From: an uncultured Cryomorphaceae bacterium
GTDB taxonomy: Bacteria; Bacteroidota; Bacteroidia; Flavobacteriales; Schleiferiaceae
Length of the DNA stretch: 64,000 bases
Direction of reading: 5' to 3'
Assembly: GCA_913043005.1 (NCBI GenBank)
Contig: CAJWKU010000003.1
Span: forward strand, 1 to 64,000
Both the position numbers and the translations under genes were made by a program. Below are positions 49,550 to 58,925 of this stretch, piece after piece; within the stretch, counting starts at the first letter, position 1; every line of letters begins with the position of its first letter. The notes beneath the pieces were generated by a model. It was given only the letters and a program-made list of their open reading frames with translations, did no database searches and was not told the origin of the DNA.

Positions 49550-51751
49550 TCATCGGTATAACAGAACTTTACCATATTCTTGTTTTGGGGAATTTGCAAA
49601 GTCTAAAATAAAAAGTCTCCATGTATAAATATCTTGAGGACATTCTATTCCAGAATTATGAATTTTACCATTCCACTCCTCATATGCGTCGATGGACTCA
49701 AATACTATATTCCCCCACCTATCAACAATGGAAAGATGATAATTGTTGAATCCCGTGACTACGGGTCGAAAGGTTTCATTTTTTCCATCATTATCTGGAG
49801 TAAATGCTTTTGGAGTCCAAATATTTAAAACTGGGTCTACTCTAATTAATTGACCTAAAGTGTCCCAGCAACCAAATTGGTTTACAGCAATTCTTTTTAT
49901 TATGAAATTGCCAGTGTCTTGATACTTATGTAAAAAAAAGTCTTGCTGACTGTAAACTGTGCTATCTCCCATGTCAAAATAAAATATTTCATCTATATTA
50001 AATCCACTTGCTTGAACTGCAACTTCTGGTTTGTAGATATTTACTTTTAGTGGAGAAACAGAAAATGGAAAATCAGGACGAGGATTCACTAATATTGCTC
50101 CTATATAATTGCCATAGATCGTGTCAATGCAGCCGTCAATAGTCCAAATCATTAGTTTTACGTCAAATAATCCTGGCGAATTATATGTATGAGTAGGCGT
50201 TTCTAGATGAGAGGTGTCACCATCTCCAAAATCCCATAGATAGGAGAGATTAGTCGAACCAGTAGCTTTTGCGTCAAATTCATATGTAAATGCGTCACAG
50301 CCAATTATTCCGCTAAAGTCGCTAACAATTTTAGGTCTATCATAAACTTTTACTGTATCTATATATGTCTCTTCACATGCTTTAGATTTTATAAATAGTT
50401 TAACAGGGTAATTTCCTGCCTTTGTAAAAGTTATGGGCGGAGGATATTCGCCCGTGAATTGAAAAATATTCGCATCTATAATGGAATTTCCAAATGTCCA
50501 CTCGATGGTTTTATCGGGATACCAGTTTCCGTTGGGTGTAAAAATAAATGCCTGCTCATCGGTACATACCCCTCCATTAATTTGAAAACTGGCATTTATA
50601 GGTGGATAAATATGAAAATCTACTTGATCCGTGTCAGCACACGGCCATCCTGGGTTTGCAATTAGTGTTACAGTATATACTCCAGTATCAGTAAAAGTAT
50701 AAGTTGGATTTGACAAGTTGGAGGTGTCAGAAGTACTATTTGGGTCACCAAAATCCCAATGAAAGAAAGTTGCGTTAAAACTGTTTTCAGAAAATGGTAC
50801 GGTTGTGCCAATACAAAGTTGTGTTGGATCATCAACCTCAGAAATTATATCAGCCCAAATTGAAACTGAACAAGATGTCACATTGAACTGATAATCTCTT
50901 CGAATAGTATTTAATAATACACCATTTCTCCATTCCTCTACACAAATAACTACAACGTATTGACCTGTAACTGATATTTTTCCCGAGAGTATCCCTGTTT
51001 GTCCGTTTATTGAAAGTGGGGGAGTCCCTGGAATTGGATTTGATATGGTGTTAGGTAAACTATATGGGATCACGACATACGGAGGTGGTCCTGGGGGATT
51101 TGGTTGTGGACTATTTAAAGATCCTTGCTGATTTGATTTGCCTCCTCCGTGAAGAACTTTGCAGAGACTATAATGTAATGAGTCATTATCAGGATCATTC
51201 GCCGTTACTGGAATATTTAAGTTTTCTTGGCTACAAAGCACAATTGGTGGTGTTGTATTCCATTGCGGGCTATTATTACAACCAGAATCATTTGGGGGTA
51301 TTTTGGCAGAAATAGTCATGCCCCAATCATCAGGGTTATTTATGTTAGTAATTGTTGCGTTTCTGCAGCATCTTTGATAAGCTATAGAATAGCCCTGAGA
51401 ACTTACGGGTAAAGTCACCAGAGCAATATATTTAGCATATTCTGTGCAAACATTTGGAGGAGCTAATAAACAAGGATTCCCCGTATTCGAAGGTAATGAT
51501 TGGGTAGGCCCTTTGTTAACTTGTATATTATTGATAAGAACACCCGAGGTGGCATTAAAAATACCGATTGAAGCACTATTATCTAATTGTGCTCCAGATG
51601 AATTACAGTCTCGATAGACTATTAATTCAATTTGGTAAACATTATTCCCAACACAAGTATAAGTTATTTCCCCACCTACAAGATGAGCTGCATTTGATTT
51701 TAGATCTAAAATTAATGCGATTGCGAAGAGAGTAATTTTAAGTGCTTTCAT
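49550..51751 (-). CDS. Secreted PKD-domain protein with T9SS type B tail
   Basis: The 733-residue protein has a signal peptide (ITLFAIALILDLKSNA) and a conserved N-terminal module beginning AHLVGGEITYTC, often seen in gliding-associated surface proteins. Several PKD domains follow (FFHWDFGDPNS, SYLWDFGDGDTSH). The tail is a CHU_C/T9SS type B sequence (IWTPKAFTPDNDGKNETF, SIVDRWGNIVFES). Cysteines in RDCNSSG and CCRNATITN suggest disulfides. Its start overlaps the GHMP kinase stop by 4 nt, an odd partner for a surface protein. Confidence 0.87.
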   Translation of the reverse strand: MKALKITLFAIALILDLKSNAAHLVGGEITYTCVGNNVYQIELIVYRDCNSSGAQLDNSASIGIFNATSGVLINNIQVNKGPTQSLPSNTGNPCLLAPPNVCTEYAKYIALVTLPVSSQGYSIAYQRCCRNATITNINNPDDWGMTISAKIPPNDSGCNNSPQWNTTPPIVLCSQENLNIPVTANDPDNDSLHYSLCKVLHGGGKSNQQGSLNSPQPNPPGPPPYVVIPYSLPNTISNPIPGTPPLSINGQTGILSGKISVTGQYVVVICVEEWRNGVLLNTIRRDYQFNVTSCSVSIWADIISEVDDPTQLCIGTTVPFSENSFNATFFHWDFGDPNSTSDTSNLSNPTYTFTDTGVYTVTLIANPGWPCADTDQVDFHIYPPINASFQINGGVCTDEQAFIFTPNGNWYPDKTIEWTFGNSIIDANIFQFTGEYPPPITFTKAGNYPVKLFIKSKACEETYIDTVKVYDRPKIVSDFSGIIGCDAFTYEFDAKATGSTNLSYLWDFGDGDTSHLETPTHTYNSPGLFDVKLMIWTIDGCIDTIYGNYIGAILVNPRPDFPFSVSPLKVNIYKPEVAVQASGFNIDEIFYFDMGDSTVYSQQDFFLHKYQDTGNFIIKRIAVNQFGCWDTLGQLIRVDPVLNIWTPKAFTPDNDGKNETFRPVVTGFNNYHLSIVDRWGNIVFESIDAYEEWNGKIHNSGIECPQDIYTWRLFILDFANSPKQEYGKVLLYR

Positions 51752-52608
51752 CGAATTACTTCATTCCAGGAAAAAAATGTTCTTGGATTATTTAGTTTAA
51801 GATAATCAACTTGTTGCTTGTTTGGAATAATTAACAGTGCAAAGTCACCTCCCCAAGCCCCTAAACTTTTCATGCCAATTGTTGAGTCTTTAAATATTGA
51901 TTGAAGCGGTGACTCTTGACCTAGGTGTTCACTCATTAATAATTCATGTTTATTAACCAAATTTATTAAGGTTTTTATTTTTGATGCTTTAAACATATCT
52001 TCTGTTAAACGAGTAAAAGCTTCAATATTTTGAATAGGTTTTTTATTATACTCTTTTACAGCTTCTGAACTTTCTTTTTTTTTACCTAAATACTGAAAAT
52101 ACATATTTTCAGTTGGCCACTGATTCAATTTTATGGGTGTAATTTCAATATTATTTTTTAGTCTCCGATAAAAAATAGGTTGTTTAGCCATTGCGCACGC
52201 TACATCATAGCCAGATCCATTTGAAGTTTTGAAATGAAGTTCTAAAGCATCTATGGAAAACCACTGGGCAATGAGCGAGGTTAAAGAGGATGAGCTACCC
52301 CAGCCCCATTCCTGGGGAAATTCAAGCTTTGTGAATACTTCTCCTCTTGGGAAGTCATTTCTATGAGCAATTTTCATTGCTTCTGTGATGAGTTTTTTTA
52401 CCTGTCTAAGATTTTCAGATTTCCCCACAAAGCCTTGAATCCAAACGCTACCATCATTTTTATAAGCAGTCCAAAATAGAGATTTATTTCCTTGAACATA
52501 ATTGAAAGTTTGACCTAGTTTAGTTGGGATAGCAATTGATTTAGCTCCTCTAAGAACTGCATACTCAGATGTAATAAGGAGCTTTCCATTTGCGCGAAAA
52601 CTAATCAT
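51748..52608 (-). CDS. GYDIA-family GHMP kinase (mevalonate pathway-associated)
   Basis: The 286-residue small-molecule kinase resembles mevalonate/phosphomevalonate kinases. The N-terminal ANGKLLITSEYAVLRG binds substrate, WGWGSSSSLTSL is the ATP loop and GSGYDVACAMA corresponds to the GYDIA motif. Its start overlaps HMG-CoA reductase by 4 nt, supporting a role in the mevalonate route to isoprenoids. Which phosphorylation step it performs cannot be decided from sequence. Confidence 0.83.
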   Translation of the reverse strand: MISFRANGKLLITSEYAVLRGAKSIAIPTKLGQTFNYVQGNKSLFWTAYKNDGSVWIQGFVGKSENLRQVKKLITEAMKIAHRNDFPRGEVFTKLEFPQEWGWGSSSSLTSLIAQWFSIDALELHFKTSNGSGYDVACAMAKQPIFYRRLKNNIEITPIKLNQWPTENMYFQYLGKKKESSEAVKEYNKKPIQNIEAFTRLTEDMFKASKIKTLINLVNKHELLMSEHLGQESPLQSIFKDSTIGMKSLGAWGGDFALLIIPNKQQVDYLKLNNPRTFFSWNEVIR

Positions 52609-53942
52609 TCAGATTCTATTTTACTCTTTGAAGAACTTCTTAAATCATTAAAGGCATTTACAACCTCTGCATGATGGGGTGCGGATTTTGAAAATATTCT
52701 CTGTAAAATTTCTTTTTCGATATCACTTGCTCCTAATTGATTCAAGATATTTAGCAAATGCATTTTCATATGTCCTTTTTGAATGCCTGTAGTAGTAAGT
52801 GCTCTTAGCGCGGCAAAATTTTGAGCTAAGCCACTAGCAGCAACTATTTTCATCAACTGATGCGCATCTGGACTTCCCAAAACATCAAGAGAGAGCTGCA
52901 CCATAGGATGCAGTTTGGTTAAACCTCCAACTGTACCTAATGAAAGAGGAATTTCAATCCAAAATTTAAAAATTCCATCTTTTATATCGCAATGTGTGAG
53001 ACTTTTATATTGCCCATCCTTTGATGCATATGTATGGCAGGCTGCTTCAACGGCTCTGAAATCATTACCTGTTGCTAGAATAACTGCATCAATACCATTC
53101 ATTATTCCCTTGTTATGAGTAGCTGCACGATAAGGTTCTATTTTAGCAATGTCAACCGCGAGTTTAAATTTCTTGGCAAATTCTTCTGAGGAAAAATTAG
53201 GACCATCTATTAAATCGCTAACTGGACAGGTCACTTCACAACGAACTAGACATTCTGGGGTATAATTTGAGAGAATACTCATAATAATGTCAAGTTTCGA
53301 AGTAGAATTTTCAAATTGATTTTCAGCAGATTCTAAAAAATATTTAGACATCTCCTCGAGACAAGAATTTATGAAATTTGCACCCATAGAATCACAGGTT
53401 TCAAATTTTACCTCTAACTGATAATAATGAATCAATTCATCAGTTTTATCGATCAAATTAACATCTAGAATTCCTCCTCCTCTGTTTCGCATGTTTTTCG
53501 TTAAAACTGAAGTTGCAGATATTAAATCCTTTTGAATAGTTGTAAATAAACTAAATATTTCTTTTTGATCTCCATCGAAAGTAAAGTGAATATGTCCTAT
53601 TTTTTTCGAAGAGATCACATGGCTTTTAAATCCCCCGCGGGATATCCAAAATTTTGCAGATTTTGCTGCTGCAGCAACTACAGAACTTTCCTCAATCGCC
53701 ATTGGAATGGTATATAATTCCTCATTAATTAGAAAATTTGGAGCAACACCTAGTGGTAAAAAATAATTAGCAACAGTATTTTCAATAAATTCATCATGCT
53801 TTTTCTGGATAAGAATATCATTGTGCATGTAAGAGTTCATTAAATGAATTCCTTTTTCTGGATTATTGAGATGAACCTTTGCTAGCCACTCCATTTTGGC
53901 TTTTTTTGAAAGCTTAGAAAACCCTTGAATTTTGCGATTCAT
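52605..53942 (-). CDS. Class II hydroxymethylglutaryl-CoA reductase
   Basis: The 445-residue enzyme reduces HMG-CoA to mevalonate (or the reverse). It starts with the class II feature SKLSKKAKMEWLAKVHL. The catalytic region EESSVVAAAAKSAKFW carries the conserved glutamate, and later motifs are RAATHNKGIMNGIDAV and LGTVGG. It lacks the membrane anchor of class I enzymes. Together with the overlapping GHMP kinase it shows the organism uses at least part of the mevalonate pathway, as many Flavobacteriia do. Cofactor (NADH/NADPH) is not decidable. Confidence 0.93.
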   Translation of the reverse strand: MNRKIQGFSKLSKKAKMEWLAKVHLNNPEKGIHLMNSYMHNDILIQKKHDEFIENTVANYFLPLGVAPNFLINEELYTIPMAIEESSVVAAAAKSAKFWISRGGFKSHVISSKKIGHIHFTFDGDQKEIFSLFTTIQKDLISATSVLTKNMRNRGGGILDVNLIDKTDELIHYYQLEVKFETCDSMGANFINSCLEEMSKYFLESAENQFENSTSKLDIIMSILSNYTPECLVRCEVTCPVSDLIDGPNFSSEEFAKKFKLAVDIAKIEPYRAATHNKGIMNGIDAVILATGNDFRAVEAACHTYASKDGQYKSLTHCDIKDGIFKFWIEIPLSLGTVGGLTKLHPMVQLSLDVLGSPDAHQLMKIVAASGLAQNFAALRALTTTGIQKGHMKMHLLNILNQLGASDIEKEILQRIFSKSAPHHAEVVNAFNDLRSSSKSKIESE

Positions 53943-54096: not shown

Positions 54097-55749
54097 TTAA
54101 CTCCAAAAAGCGGCATATATGACTGCTAATAATATCATAATTCCAAATGCCCCAATATTATAAATTGGATCCGTCTTAAACGTCTCCTGACTAATAGATA
54201 TTCCTTTTTTGTCATTTGCTCCCTTGAGTTGATACCAACTAATTATTGCTATAACAAGCATGGTAATTATTGTAGTTAGCCCCATTTGGTTCAAGAAAGG
54301 CAAGTCTACAAACATAGGGCTGTCAGACCAGCCTTTGGGGCTAACTTTAAAGTACATGGCAATCGGAATTGAAGATAAGGCCCCCACGATTGCTCCTTTA
54401 TTGGTAGTTTTTTTCCAAAAAAGACCTAACATGAAGACAGCTAATATTCCTGGACTGACTACACCTGTGTATTCTTGAATGAATTGAAATGCTTGATCAA
54501 TCCCGCCCAACAAGGGGGCCATTATCGAAGCTATAATCAGAGCAACTAAAGCGGAAATTCGTCCCATATTCACCGTTTGTCTGTCATCAGCCACAGTGTT
54601 AATGTACTGCTTGTATATGTCCATGGTAAAAATTGTTGAAGTGGAGTTCAACATTGAAGCGAGAGAAGAAACTATGGCAGCAGTAAGTGCTGCAAAGGCT
54701 AATCCTCTTAATCCAGTTGGGAGTAATTGTAACAACCATGGATATGCCTTGTCAGCTGTATTCATGTCTGGTAAATTATTCATAGCTACGTCACCTAATC
54801 CATTCATTATTTCCGGGTCTTTGATGATAACATAAGCTGCGATTCCTGGTATAACGACAATGATGGGCAAGATCATTTTTAATGCTGCGGCAAAAAGGAT
54901 TCCTTTTTGTGCCTCTTTGAGAGACTTTGCTGCCAAAGTTCTTTGAATGATATATTGATTAAATCCCCAATAATAAAGATTAGCAACCCACATTCCTCCG
55001 ACTAAAACGCCAATACCTGGGAGGTTATTATATTCAGGATTGCTTTTGTCCAAAATCATCGAGAAATGGTCTGGTGCCGCCTCATAAATTGTCTTAAATC
55101 CCGCGAGAAAACCTTGACCGCTTGACACCAAGTCTAAAGCCAAATATGTTGTTGCAAACCCTCCAAGAGTAAGAAAGAAAACTTGAATAACATCAGTCCA
55201 TGATACTGCCGAAAGTCCCCCATATAATGAATATGCTGCTGCAAAAGCTGCCAATCCAATTACCCCATACATTTGAGGAATACCCATTATCGTCTCAAGC
55301 GCTAGGGAACCTAAATATAAAACAGATGCAAGGTTTACGAAAATATACAAGGCTATCCAAAACACTGCTAAAATTGTTTTAAGATTAGTAGAAAACCTTT
55401 TTTCTACAAATTCAGGAATTGTATATAACCCTTTTTCGATAAATATGGGAAGAAAGTATTTTCCAACAATTAATAGCGTAAGCGCTGCCATCCATTCATA
55501 TGAAGCAATGGCCAAACCCAGTTTATATCCAGAACCGGACATTCCTATAAATTGCTCTGCTGAAATATTTGCAGCAATTAAAGAGGCTCCAACGGCCCAC
55601 CAGGGAAGGGATTTGCTAGCTAAAAAATAATCTTCAGCATTTTTTTGATGTCCTTTTTTATCTCGCGACATAAAAAGCCCAACACCCAGTATGAGTAATG
55701 CGTATGAAATAAATATCACATAATCTAAAATTTCAAATTGTGTTGTCAT
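54097..55749 (-). CDS. Sodium:solute symporter (SGLT-type)
   Basis: The 550-residue membrane protein belongs to the SSS family, with about 14 segments. Motifs include FLASKSLPWWAVGASLIAAN and GLYTIPEFVEKRF; the sugar-transporter relatives (vSGLT) share these. It is 32 nt downstream of a NrtR-type regulator and so is probably transcribed with it, opposite a trehalase-like gene. That context suggests uptake of a disaccharide or related sugar. The 154-nt gap to HMG-CoA reductase shows nothing I can recognise. Confidence 0.88.
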   Translation of the reverse strand: MTTQFEILDYVIFISYALLILGVGLFMSRDKKGHQKNAEDYFLASKSLPWWAVGASLIAANISAEQFIGMSGSGYKLGLAIASYEWMAALTLLIVGKYFLPIFIEKGLYTIPEFVEKRFSTNLKTILAVFWIALYIFVNLASVLYLGSLALETIMGIPQMYGVIGLAAFAAAYSLYGGLSAVSWTDVIQVFFLTLGGFATTYLALDLVSSGQGFLAGFKTIYEAAPDHFSMILDKSNPEYNNLPGIGVLVGGMWVANLYYWGFNQYIIQRTLAAKSLKEAQKGILFAAALKMILPIIVVIPGIAAYVIIKDPEIMNGLGDVAMNNLPDMNTADKAYPWLLQLLPTGLRGLAFAALTAAIVSSLASMLNSTSTIFTMDIYKQYINTVADDRQTVNMGRISALVALIIASIMAPLLGGIDQAFQFIQEYTGVVSPGILAVFMLGLFWKKTTNKGAIVGALSSIPIAMYFKVSPKGWSDSPMFVDLPFLNQMGLTTIITMLVIAIISWYQLKGANDKKGISISQETFKTDPIYNIGAFGIMILLAVIYAAFWS

Positions 55750-55781: not shown

Positions 55782-56486
55782 TTAAAGTTCAAAATGAAAA
55801 TTTCTCTTGGTTAAATCTGCATATCGTTCAGAATCAAAACGATACATTCTCGCAGGACGATGTCTGACTGCTTTTTGCATTTTTTCCAAAGGAATAAGTA
55901 AGTCCATACCAAGTATTTTTTTCCTAAAATTGGCTTTATCGAATGTTTGATTCAATAATTTCTCATAAAGGTCCTGGAGCTGTGCTAAAGTAAATTCTTC
56001 CGGAAGTAACTCGAATCCGATAGGTCGGCGACGTACTCGCTCCTGAAGACGATTCAAAGCAGATGAGAATATTTCAAAGTGATCAAAAGCCATTTCTTTA
56101 ATATCTTGAATTGAAGTCCAAGTGGCGTCAGTAGCCCATGAAGAGGGTTTTGGATTGTAGTCATCAATTTTTATCAGAGAATAATATGCAATGGTCACAA
56201 CACGACCCAAGGGATGCCTATTTACGCCAGCAAATGCTTTGAGTTGTTCTAGATAAATATTTTTCAGTCCGGTTAGCTCATTAAGAACTCGTTTAGTTGC
56301 GTCAAGAGGGTCTTCTTGTTCATGGACGAGGTCGCCTGGAATTGCAGAGAAGTCTTTGAAGGGTTCGGTTCCTCTTTTAATAACAAGAACTTTAACATCT
56401 GAACCATCAAACCCAAAAACCACACAATCTACTGAGATTCCAAAAGTGAAATGAGTGGATGATTTAGCACGTTCTTTTTCGTACAT
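55782..56486 (-). CDS. NrtR-family (Nudix-related) transcriptional regulator
   Basis: The 234-residue protein has an N-terminal Nudix-like domain and a C-terminal winged-helix domain (about 150-234, FRKKILGM, RPARMYRF), the NrtR/AraR layout. The Nudix box at 51-74 is degenerate: RExxEE has become RVLNEL, so it should bind a ligand but not hydrolyse it. In Bacteroidota such proteins control sugar use (AraR). It sits in front of a symporter and is divergent from a trehalase-like gene, next to a perfect palindrome that is its likely operator. Confidence 0.87.
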   Translation of the reverse strand: MYEKERAKSSTHFTFGISVDCVVFGFDGSDVKVLVIKRGTEPFKDFSAIPGDLVHEQEDPLDATKRVLNELTGLKNIYLEQLKAFAGVNRHPLGRVVTIAYYSLIKIDDYNPKPSSWATDATWTSIQDIKEMAFDHFEIFSSALNRLQERVRRRPIGFELLPEEFTLAQLQDLYEKLLNQTFDKANFRKKILGMDLLIPLEKMQKAVRHRPARMYRFDSERYADLTKRNFHFEL

Positions 56487-56554: not shown

Positions 56555-56583
56555 AATTAAAGTGTTATGATAACACTTTAATT
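56555..56583. promoter_or_regulatory. Perfect 29-bp palindrome, predicted regulator operator
   Basis: AATTAAAGTGTTAT, one central G, then ATAACACTTTAATT: arms of 14 nt match perfectly. It lies 10 nt upstream of the minus-33 element of the divergent regulator gene. Its size and symmetry suit a dimeric winged-helix regulator, most simply the neighbouring NrtR-type protein. No T-tract follows as in a terminator. Confidence 0.7.
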
Positions 56584-56879: not shown

Positions 56880-58394
56880 TTGTACGATAATTCACAAGTT
56901 TTAAAAGACATAACTAGTAGTGTCCCAAATCATCAGTCTGCATGGGAAGATATGATTTCAGATCTCACACGAAAAGGGTCATCGTTTAGTTCTCAGGAAT
57001 TACGAGATTCTAAACCTAATGGAGCTGTTAAGACAATTTTAGCCAACTGGGAAAAGTTTAAAGGTAAATCTGATCTATTCATTAAATCGAATCTGGTGAT
57101 TCAAGAGCCAATCCTTTCTAAGTATAAAGAAAAAAGCAAGCAGTCGGCAAAAGAGTATTGTGAAAATATATGGCAGCATCTTAATCGAGGAATTGATAAA
57201 TCAAAGTGGAGCGGTAGTCGTATTGCTCTTCCAAAACCTTATTATGTCTCTTCTGAGACAGCTCAAGATGTTACTTACTGGGAAAGTTATTTTACAATTT
57301 TGGGTTTAGTTGCAGCTCAAAAGAAGCAGGCCGCAATTGACATGGTTGACAATTTTGCCTATTTGCTTGAAAAATTTGGATTAATCCCTTCTCAATCAAG
57401 GTATTATTCATTGTCATCGTCCCAACCTCCTTATTTCTCTTTAATGGTTGCAGTCATTGTCAATAAAGGTTGGGCTAATTGGTCTGACTACGCTTTAGCC
57501 TTAAGAAGAGAATATCAGTTTTGGATGGAAGGAGCGGACGTAGAAGCCGCTGACGGCTTTGCATATCGTCGTGTTGTCAAGGTTAAAGGTTATGTTTTAA
57601 ATCGATATTGGGATGACAAATCAGATAAAAAGCATAGAATTTTAGAACATCATTCAGATCTGTTAGATGTTGCAAAAAAGTCAGGAATTTCTGATGAAGA
57701 AATTATCGAGCATTTATGCTCAGCAAGCGAATCAGGTTGGGATGTCAGTAGTCGTTGGATGTCTAAACCATTGGATTCTTCTTCCATAAAAACAGCTCAT
57801 ATTATTCCTATAGAATTGAATGCACTTTTGTCTCACCTTGAATTCGCTCTTGGAAGAGCTTTTCCAGCAGAGAAAAATCAGTGGAGTGCAAGGGTAAGAG
57901 AGCGTCGTTCTGCTTTAAATACATTATTTTGGAATGGTGAAACTTACACAGATATTGATTTGGATGGAATGGGACGCAGTGAACATCTCAGTGCCGCAAT
58001 GTTTTATCCGCTATGGATTGGAGCCCCCGGAGTGAAGCAGGTTGATCGTGTTTTAGAAATTTTAGAAGTTAATTATTTAACAAAAGGTGGAGTTGTTACC
58101 AGTTTGTCGGATACGGGACAAGAATGGGACTTCCCTAATGTTTCACCTTCGATCCAATGGGCGTGTATAGTTGGCGCCCATCGTTGTGGTAATATTGTTT
58201 TAGCCAATAAAATAGCGCAATCATTTGTTCACAACTGTGATATGTTTTTTGAAAAAAACAAAAACTTTTTAAAGACATACAATTCCGATATAAACAATAA
58301 TTCGAATGATACATCGGAACAGGGATATGCTTGCTCCATTGGAGTGTATTTAGGTTGTGTTGAATTCATAGAGACTGGAAATATCATTGGTTGA
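56880..58394 (+). CDS. GH37 trehalase-like protein with altered active site
   Basis: The 504-residue cytoplasmic (no signal) protein has the GH37 frame: YWESYFTILGL, SQPPYFSLMV, SESGWDVSSRW and QEWDFPNVSP. The proposed general acid aspartate is D288. Other GH37 hallmarks are changed: the PGGRF signature is SSETA (Arg to Thr127), RSQPP is SSQPP (Arg to Ser180), and the GGGGEY segment with the catalytic base is replaced by NDTSEQGY. It therefore may act on a different sugar or be non-catalytic. The start is TTG at 56880, preceded by an in-frame stop; a later ATG at codon 25 is an alternative. Confidence 0.82.
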   Translation: MYDNSQVLKDITSSVPNHQSAWEDMISDLTRKGSSFSSQELRDSKPNGAVKTILANWEKFKGKSDLFIKSNLVIQEPILSKYKEKSKQSAKEYCENIWQHLNRGIDKSKWSGSRIALPKPYYVSSETAQDVTYWESYFTILGLVAAQKKQAAIDMVDNFAYLLEKFGLIPSQSRYYSLSSSQPPYFSLMVAVIVNKGWANWSDYALALRREYQFWMEGADVEAADGFAYRRVVKVKGYVLNRYWDDKSDKKHRILEHHSDLLDVAKKSGISDEEIIEHLCSASESGWDVSSRWMSKPLDSSSIKTAHIIPIELNALLSHLEFALGRAFPAEKNQWSARVRERRSALNTLFWNGETYTDIDLDGMGRSEHLSAAMFYPLWIGAPGVKQVDRVLEILEVNYLTKGGVVTSLSDTGQEWDFPNVSPSIQWACIVGAHRCGNIVLANKIAQSFVHNCDMFFEKNKNFLKTYNSDINNNSNDTSEQGYACSIGVYLGCVEFIETGNIIG

Positions 58395-58464: not shown

Positions 58465-58797
58465 TCAGATAAAAGTATTTCTAGTGTAAATATGTGCACC
58501 AAAGAAATATGCAAAACAATCATAAATATCTGCAGTAAATCGGTGATCAAAATTGGGTATGATAAACTCAAACATTATCGCAGTTATTCCTGTGTAGGTA
58601 AAAATTGGAATTTTTTTGATCCTGAAATTAGCTACAAAAAAAGCGATTAAATACTCTATACTCCCCAGCAATGTCGGAATAAAAACAAGAGGGTCTAAAT
58701 ATGAATCAAGAAATGAGTTAGAAAAATGATAATAGATTAATGTTTGATGCAGTAAAAAACATACGGAGCTGATTATCCAAACATTTTTTCTATTCAT
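58465..58797 (-). CDS. Small conserved membrane protein
   Basis: The ATG at 58797 gives 110 residues with about three to four hydrophobic segments and the motif MFEFIIPNFDHRFTADIYDC. This resembles small Bacteroidota membrane proteins sometimes labelled magnesium citrate secondary transporter, or VanZ-like, but that labelling is unproven. A longer TTG-started frame is rejected because this ATG overlaps the stop of an upstream small gene by 4 nt. Function is unknown. Confidence 0.7.
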   Translation of the reverse strand: MNRKNVWIISSVCFLLHQTLIYYHFSNSFLDSYLDPLVFIPTLLGSIEYLIAFFVANFRIKKIPIFTYTGITAIMFEFIIPNFDHRFTADIYDCFAYFFGAHIYTRNTFI

Positions 58798-58925
58798 ATT
58801 GCCACCCAATAGACAAAGGCACTACCCAAACCTGCTAGAAACATTGAAATCCATTGTAAAAAGTTGTTTTTGAGTGATTTTTGCGGGAATAGAGTTGTTT
58901 TGAATAAATATAGAATCCTAGTCAT
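58794..58925 (-). CDS. Small membrane protein, 43 aa
   Basis: A 43-codon frame (MTRILYLFKTTLFPQK then a hydrophobic FLQWISMFLAGLGSAFVYW) stops at an ATGA overlap with the next gene. The overlap and the single clear membrane helix argue that it is a real, coupled gene. It ends VAI. No family recognised; probably a partner of the following membrane protein. Confidence 0.6.
   Translation of the reverse strand: MTRILYLFKTTLFPQKSLKNNFLQWISMFLAGLGSAFVYWVAI

Follow-up and report, generated by a model that had tools for sequence, protein, structure and literature searches.

The window, i.e., the whole stretch of 64,000 nucleotides analyzed here, carries on its forward strand (56880–58394) an intact frame without internal stops that encodes a 504-amino acid protein of the GH37 trehalase fold, referred to below as the pseudo-trehalase, with orthologues in four other genomes. 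The gene starts at a TTG, which is the first usual start codon since an in-frame TAG stop is located only a few codons upstream. Inspection of the N-terminal sequence did not reveal a hydrophobic signal peptide, and the protein is for this reason probably cytoplasmic. On the opposite strand and in divergent orientation lies the gene of an NrtR/AraR-like transcription factor composed of a Nudix domain and a winged helix (55782–56486; PF21906, PF19368, PF00293), which has its upstream intergenic region in common with the pseudo-trehalase gene. It is followed on the same strand by a Na+/solute symporter of the SSS family (54097–55749; PF00474, TIGR00813). Positions 51748–53942 encode an HMG-CoA reductase and then a 286-amino acid protein without Pfam match that is mevalonate-kinase-like by position only; both adjoin the symporter in most of the genus loci examined. 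A predicted membrane protein of 114 amino acids (58465–58809) has homologues at 8 out of 12 genus loci examined, with 35 to 94% identity.

The common intergenic region contains a perfect 27-bp palindrome (56556–56582; ATTAAAGTGTTATGATAACACTTTAAT), situated nearer to the regulator than to the pseudo-trehalase gene. Its arms AAGTGTT/AACACTT are kept in the orthologous loci of genomes G012 and G010 at the same distance to the regulator, with different 5-bp centers, and the palindrome was not found in G014 or G016. A genome-wide operator search returned the copy beside the regulator as the sole exact one, while matches with three mismatches occurred at control level. Consequently, no regulon can be drawn. 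The palindrome may control the regulator gene alone.

A trehalase fold with a dismantled active site

The assignment to GH37 made in the first-pass annotation is well-supported by both sequence and predicted fold. The protein matches the Pfam Trehalase profile (PF01204) with an E-value of 3.6e-71 (241 bits vs. a cut-off of 21) and its best PDB trehalase with an E-value of 7.9e-72, at approximately 30% identity to the PDB trehalases and with recognizable signature positions. An AlphaFold model, built with 16 related sequences as input (pLDDT 82, pTM 0.85), superposes on E. coli trehalase 2jjb over 469 residues (Z 52.0, rmsd 2.4). This comparison, which the annotation had proposed, covers the whole fold and predicts the same (alpha/alpha)6 barrel as in the E. 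coli enzyme.

In E. coli trehalase Asp312 acts as the acid and Glu496 as the base, while the trehalase of Spodoptera frugiperda depends on three arginines (Gibson 2007 and Silva 2010, as cited in PMC9604388). We compared the corresponding positions in an alignment that included PDB trehalases together with 69 further members of GH37; residues of the five orthologues are given below in the order window, G012, G010, G014, G016. The signature PGGRFxExYYWDSY of functional trehalases reads SSETAQDVTYWESY in the window, the remnant (57243–57290; YVSSETAQDVTYWESY) having exchanged the Arg for T127, the Phe for A128 and the Asp for E135. The Arg position at residue 127 reads T/T/T/G/G. At the place of xRSQPP stands SSSQPP (57414–57431), with S180 instead of the Arg in all five orthologues. 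Both substitutions had been read from the single sequence and are borne out by the alignment. The suggestion that the Arg of PRPESY survives as R253 did not stand: residue 253 is R in three and E in two orthologues, and the PRPES column is in fact residue 251, which reads K/K/K/N/N, so that this Arg has been lost as well. None of the three essential arginines is therefore present in any of the five proteins.

The catalytic carboxylates fare no better. The acid Asp, described as kept, is indeed found in the window's copy (D288, codon 57741–57743), but its position reads D/G/G/E/E and the residue is not a property of the clade. The segment GGGGEY with the base Glu is shortened or deleted in all five orthologues, in agreement with the earlier observation; the remaining region (58278–58328; YNSDINNNSNDTSEQGY) is the least conserved loop, with 4 of 23 residues invariant. 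E480, considered as a possible substitute, is found in three orthologues and gives way to S in the other two, hence residue 480 provides no conserved replacement base. The second signature, QWDxPNxW, reads EWDFPNVS in a remnant at 58116–58154 (GQEWDFPNVSPSI), the Gln and Trp being replaced by E415 and S422. Over all five orthologues the other pocket changes are Asn 171 to S/T, Asp 135 to E, Gln 415 to E/N and Trp 422 to S/Y.

All ten positions checked are canonical throughout the 69 other GH37 proteins. The motif GGEY is present in 68 of them; in L098, the only exception, DGEY was read by eye, with the Glu retained. Seen in five out of five orthologues vs. none of 69 other family members, the losses are not due to chance. 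When all otherwise invariant GH37 residues are considered, 6 out of 11 are lost in the pocket set taken from the literature compared to 23 out of 75 elsewhere, an enrichment that is not significant (Fisher p 0.11), so part of the change may reflect overall divergence accumulated over a very long stem branch.

A small clade under strong selection

Of the 21 further genomes searched in the genus, 4 carry an orthologue (identity 91, 88, 67, and 66%), all being metagenome-assembled genomes of the Owenweeksia sp. TMED14/Cryomorphaceae group of marine Flavobacteriales; 17 of the 22 genus genomes lack the gene. In a wider search of 395 genomes each from the order and the phylum, the sequences fetched and read residue by residue, shorter and weaker matches aside, comprised no clade member beyond these five, and all GH37 proteins among them are canonical. 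A relative in viral contigs was not found either. The GH37 trehalases of another genus (L027–L035) belong to the same bacterial family and the same Pfam family as the pseudo-trehalase, yet they possess every canonical residue and are separated from it by a very long branch. These canonical trehalases have no residues aligning with AYRRVVK. In a quick tree the five proteins are set apart by a stem with 2.44 changes per column; because of this long stem the placement of the clade is unsure. Such a stem fits a loss of catalysis with rapid change and, afterward, renewed constraint.

The frame is open and free of stops in all five orthologues, and dN/dS amounts to 0.04–0.12 for pairs with measurable dS; between the two subclades the ratio is not computable since synonymous sites are saturated. 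Invariant sites are clustered, with 58 out of 60 in the best stretch, a value reached in none of 5000 shuffles, and neither the base loop (17% invariant) nor the PGGRF loop (48% invariant) belongs to the clusters. Residues 186–247 (57435–57620) are invariant for 87% in the five orthologues. They include the loop 216–247 (the MEGADVEAADGFAYRRVVKVKGYVLNRYWDDK region, within 57435–57620) with 30 out of 32 invariant residues (94%), which helix order and the placement of GH37 motifs put on the presumed active-site side of the barrel. The most constrained part of the protein is formed by residues 311–384 (57810–58031), with 93% invariant. Within these stretches the two subclades do show differences in synonymous codons, and the conservation is therefore not explained by recent recombination.

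From a probable loss of catalysis to a possible role in sugar uptake

Taken together, the protein belongs to a selected, non-trehalase branch of GH37 and is very probably a pseudoenzyme. The first-pass annotation had left three options, i.e., a glycosidase with another substrate, a phosphorylase-like variant or a sugar-binding pseudoenzyme. A GH37-type glycosidase or phosphorylase needs the acid at residue 288, yet this position reads G/G/E/E in the other four orthologues under strong purifying selection, and the base segment is deleted, which favors the third option. From the tests of acid, base and arginines, a trehalase or phosphorylase of GH37 mechanism appears very unlikely in this clade, and we consider it likely that the protein is no active GH37-type glycosidase and has been retained for another reason. 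Sugar binding would be plausible.

We propose, with a probability of roughly 0.6, that the protein is a cytoplasmic pseudoenzyme derived from a GH37 trehalase that binds a sugar or a partner and modulates the neighboring symporter or regulator. The trehalase ancestor would have lost hydrolysis while the protein was retained for binding, and the highly conserved barrel segments (residues 186–247 and 311–384) would form the functional surface. Upon binding a sugar or a partner protein, it might then act on the Na+/sugar symporter or on the NrtR/AraR-like regulator, with which it has the intergenic control region in common. The steps of this proposal are not equally firm. The pseudoenzyme step is its solid part and can be regarded as likely by a wide measure, whereas a role in the control of sugar uptake, suggested by gene neighborhood, is a tentative idea.

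The best-surviving alternative, in our view an unlikely one, is a neofunctionalized enzyme in which the GH37 fold serves a glycosidase or another sugar-active enzyme with new catalytic residues. Candidates are available: E126, E135, E217, D220, E222, D225, H307, and E312 are all invariant in the clade, some of them being clade-specific. The 94% invariant loop 216–247, on the active-site side by topology, and the strong purifying selection are compatible with such an enzyme as well. However, the known acid and base positions have both been abandoned, the former varying freely, and few parts of the protein are less conserved than the PGGRF and base loops.

More doubtful is the idea that the pseudoenzyme, e.g., a scaffold, is unrelated to its neighbors and was placed beside the symporter and regulator by chance. 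Regulator orthologues are present in most genus members without pseudo-trehalase, with the symporter following the regulator in six such loci; there, a PhoD phosphatase gene is found nearby or, in L046, a GH3 gene. PhoD near the same spot in several relatives indicates that unrelated genes come and go at this locus. The presence of regulator and symporter in most relatives without pseudo-trehalase, which implies that they do not generally need it, counts against the role in sugar uptake proposed above. Against chance placement, orthologues of only 66–67% identity still have the shared divergent intergenic region and the arrangement of genes in common, the order regulator, symporter and HMG-CoA reductase being kept beside the pseudo-trehalase in the loci examined of G010, G012, and G014.

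A decaying pseudogene, or relaxed selection on a gene leaving a streamlined genome, would account for the many otherwise invariant GH37 residues that were lost and for the absence from most of the genus, but it is very unlikely because of the low dN/dS in a frame intact in five species, with long invariant stretches despite saturation of synonymous sites. An ordinary trehalase with merely misaligned residues, for which the overall identity of approximately 30% and the complete match of the fold to that of E. coli trehalase might be cited, can be dismissed as highly improbable: the PGGRF, RSQPP, and acid positions align without gaps to their neighbors, the clade has no conserved Arg or Glu that would compensate, and at sequence level there are no conserved in-place equivalents at the three arginines, the acid or the base.

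A characterized relative of the regulator, BtAraR, is an arabinose-responsive NrtR-family factor (PMC4666351). In one relative (L043) the regulator orthologue adjoins a SusD-GH16-GH3 locus. Elsewhere in the window's own genome, a paralogous NrtR-like regulator (L051; G000:C10:34000-49000) lies beside a sucrose-type sugar symporter and is divergent from PFK, GAPDH and a GH65 gene. These two settings were counted for the link to sugar uptake. The same genome also encodes a laminarin-type locus (L050; G000:C12:12000-27000) comprising SusD, a PKD protein, GH16, a CBM48-type protein, GH3, and GH5 with CBM6. In its most specific form, a trehalase fold turned into an intracellular sensor or adaptor over a Na+/sugar symporter and an NrtR/AraR-type regulator in streamlined marine Bacteroidota that feed on algal glucans, the proposal is an unlikely, exploratory one. 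A tie to trehalose synthesis was considered as well for the OtsA route, not for TreS or TreY/TreZ, and is ruled out for that route by the absence of OtsA in all 22 genus genomes, which we also count in favor of the proposed pseudoenzyme; nor does the window's genome encode a second trehalase as a possible regulatory target.

Relation to known systems

Automatic annotation would label this gene a trehalase and so credit these bacteria with a use of trehalose that the gene cannot provide. Small genomes usually lose useless genes. Should the protein bind a sugar but leave it uncleaved, it would be a clear example of an enzyme converted into a regulator and retained in such a genome. In the open-access literature searched, with most subscription papers outside it, no paper on a GH37 pseudoenzyme was found.

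Among the closest known systems, the GH37 trehalase E. coli TreA/Tre37A (PDB 2jf4, 2jg0, 2jjb, 2wyn) has the full-length barrel fold in common with the pseudo-trehalase at approximately 30% identity, but differs in the three active-site arginines, the base Glu segment and the Trp, Asn, and Gln of the pocket, all replaced here, and in the acid Asp, which is not conserved in the clade. The same barrel fold is present in GH63 (mannosylglycerate hydrolase, YgjK) and GH100 (neutral invertases); with Z-scores of 27–34, identities of 9–17% and a shorter aligned length, these families are not closer than GH37. With respect to the proposed action, a parallel is offered by yeast Gal3, a non-catalytic enzyme homologue that serves as a sugar sensor. 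The two families are unrelated, and the analogy would lie in the path taken, by which an enzyme fold is kept, catalysis is lost and binding is put to use for regulation.
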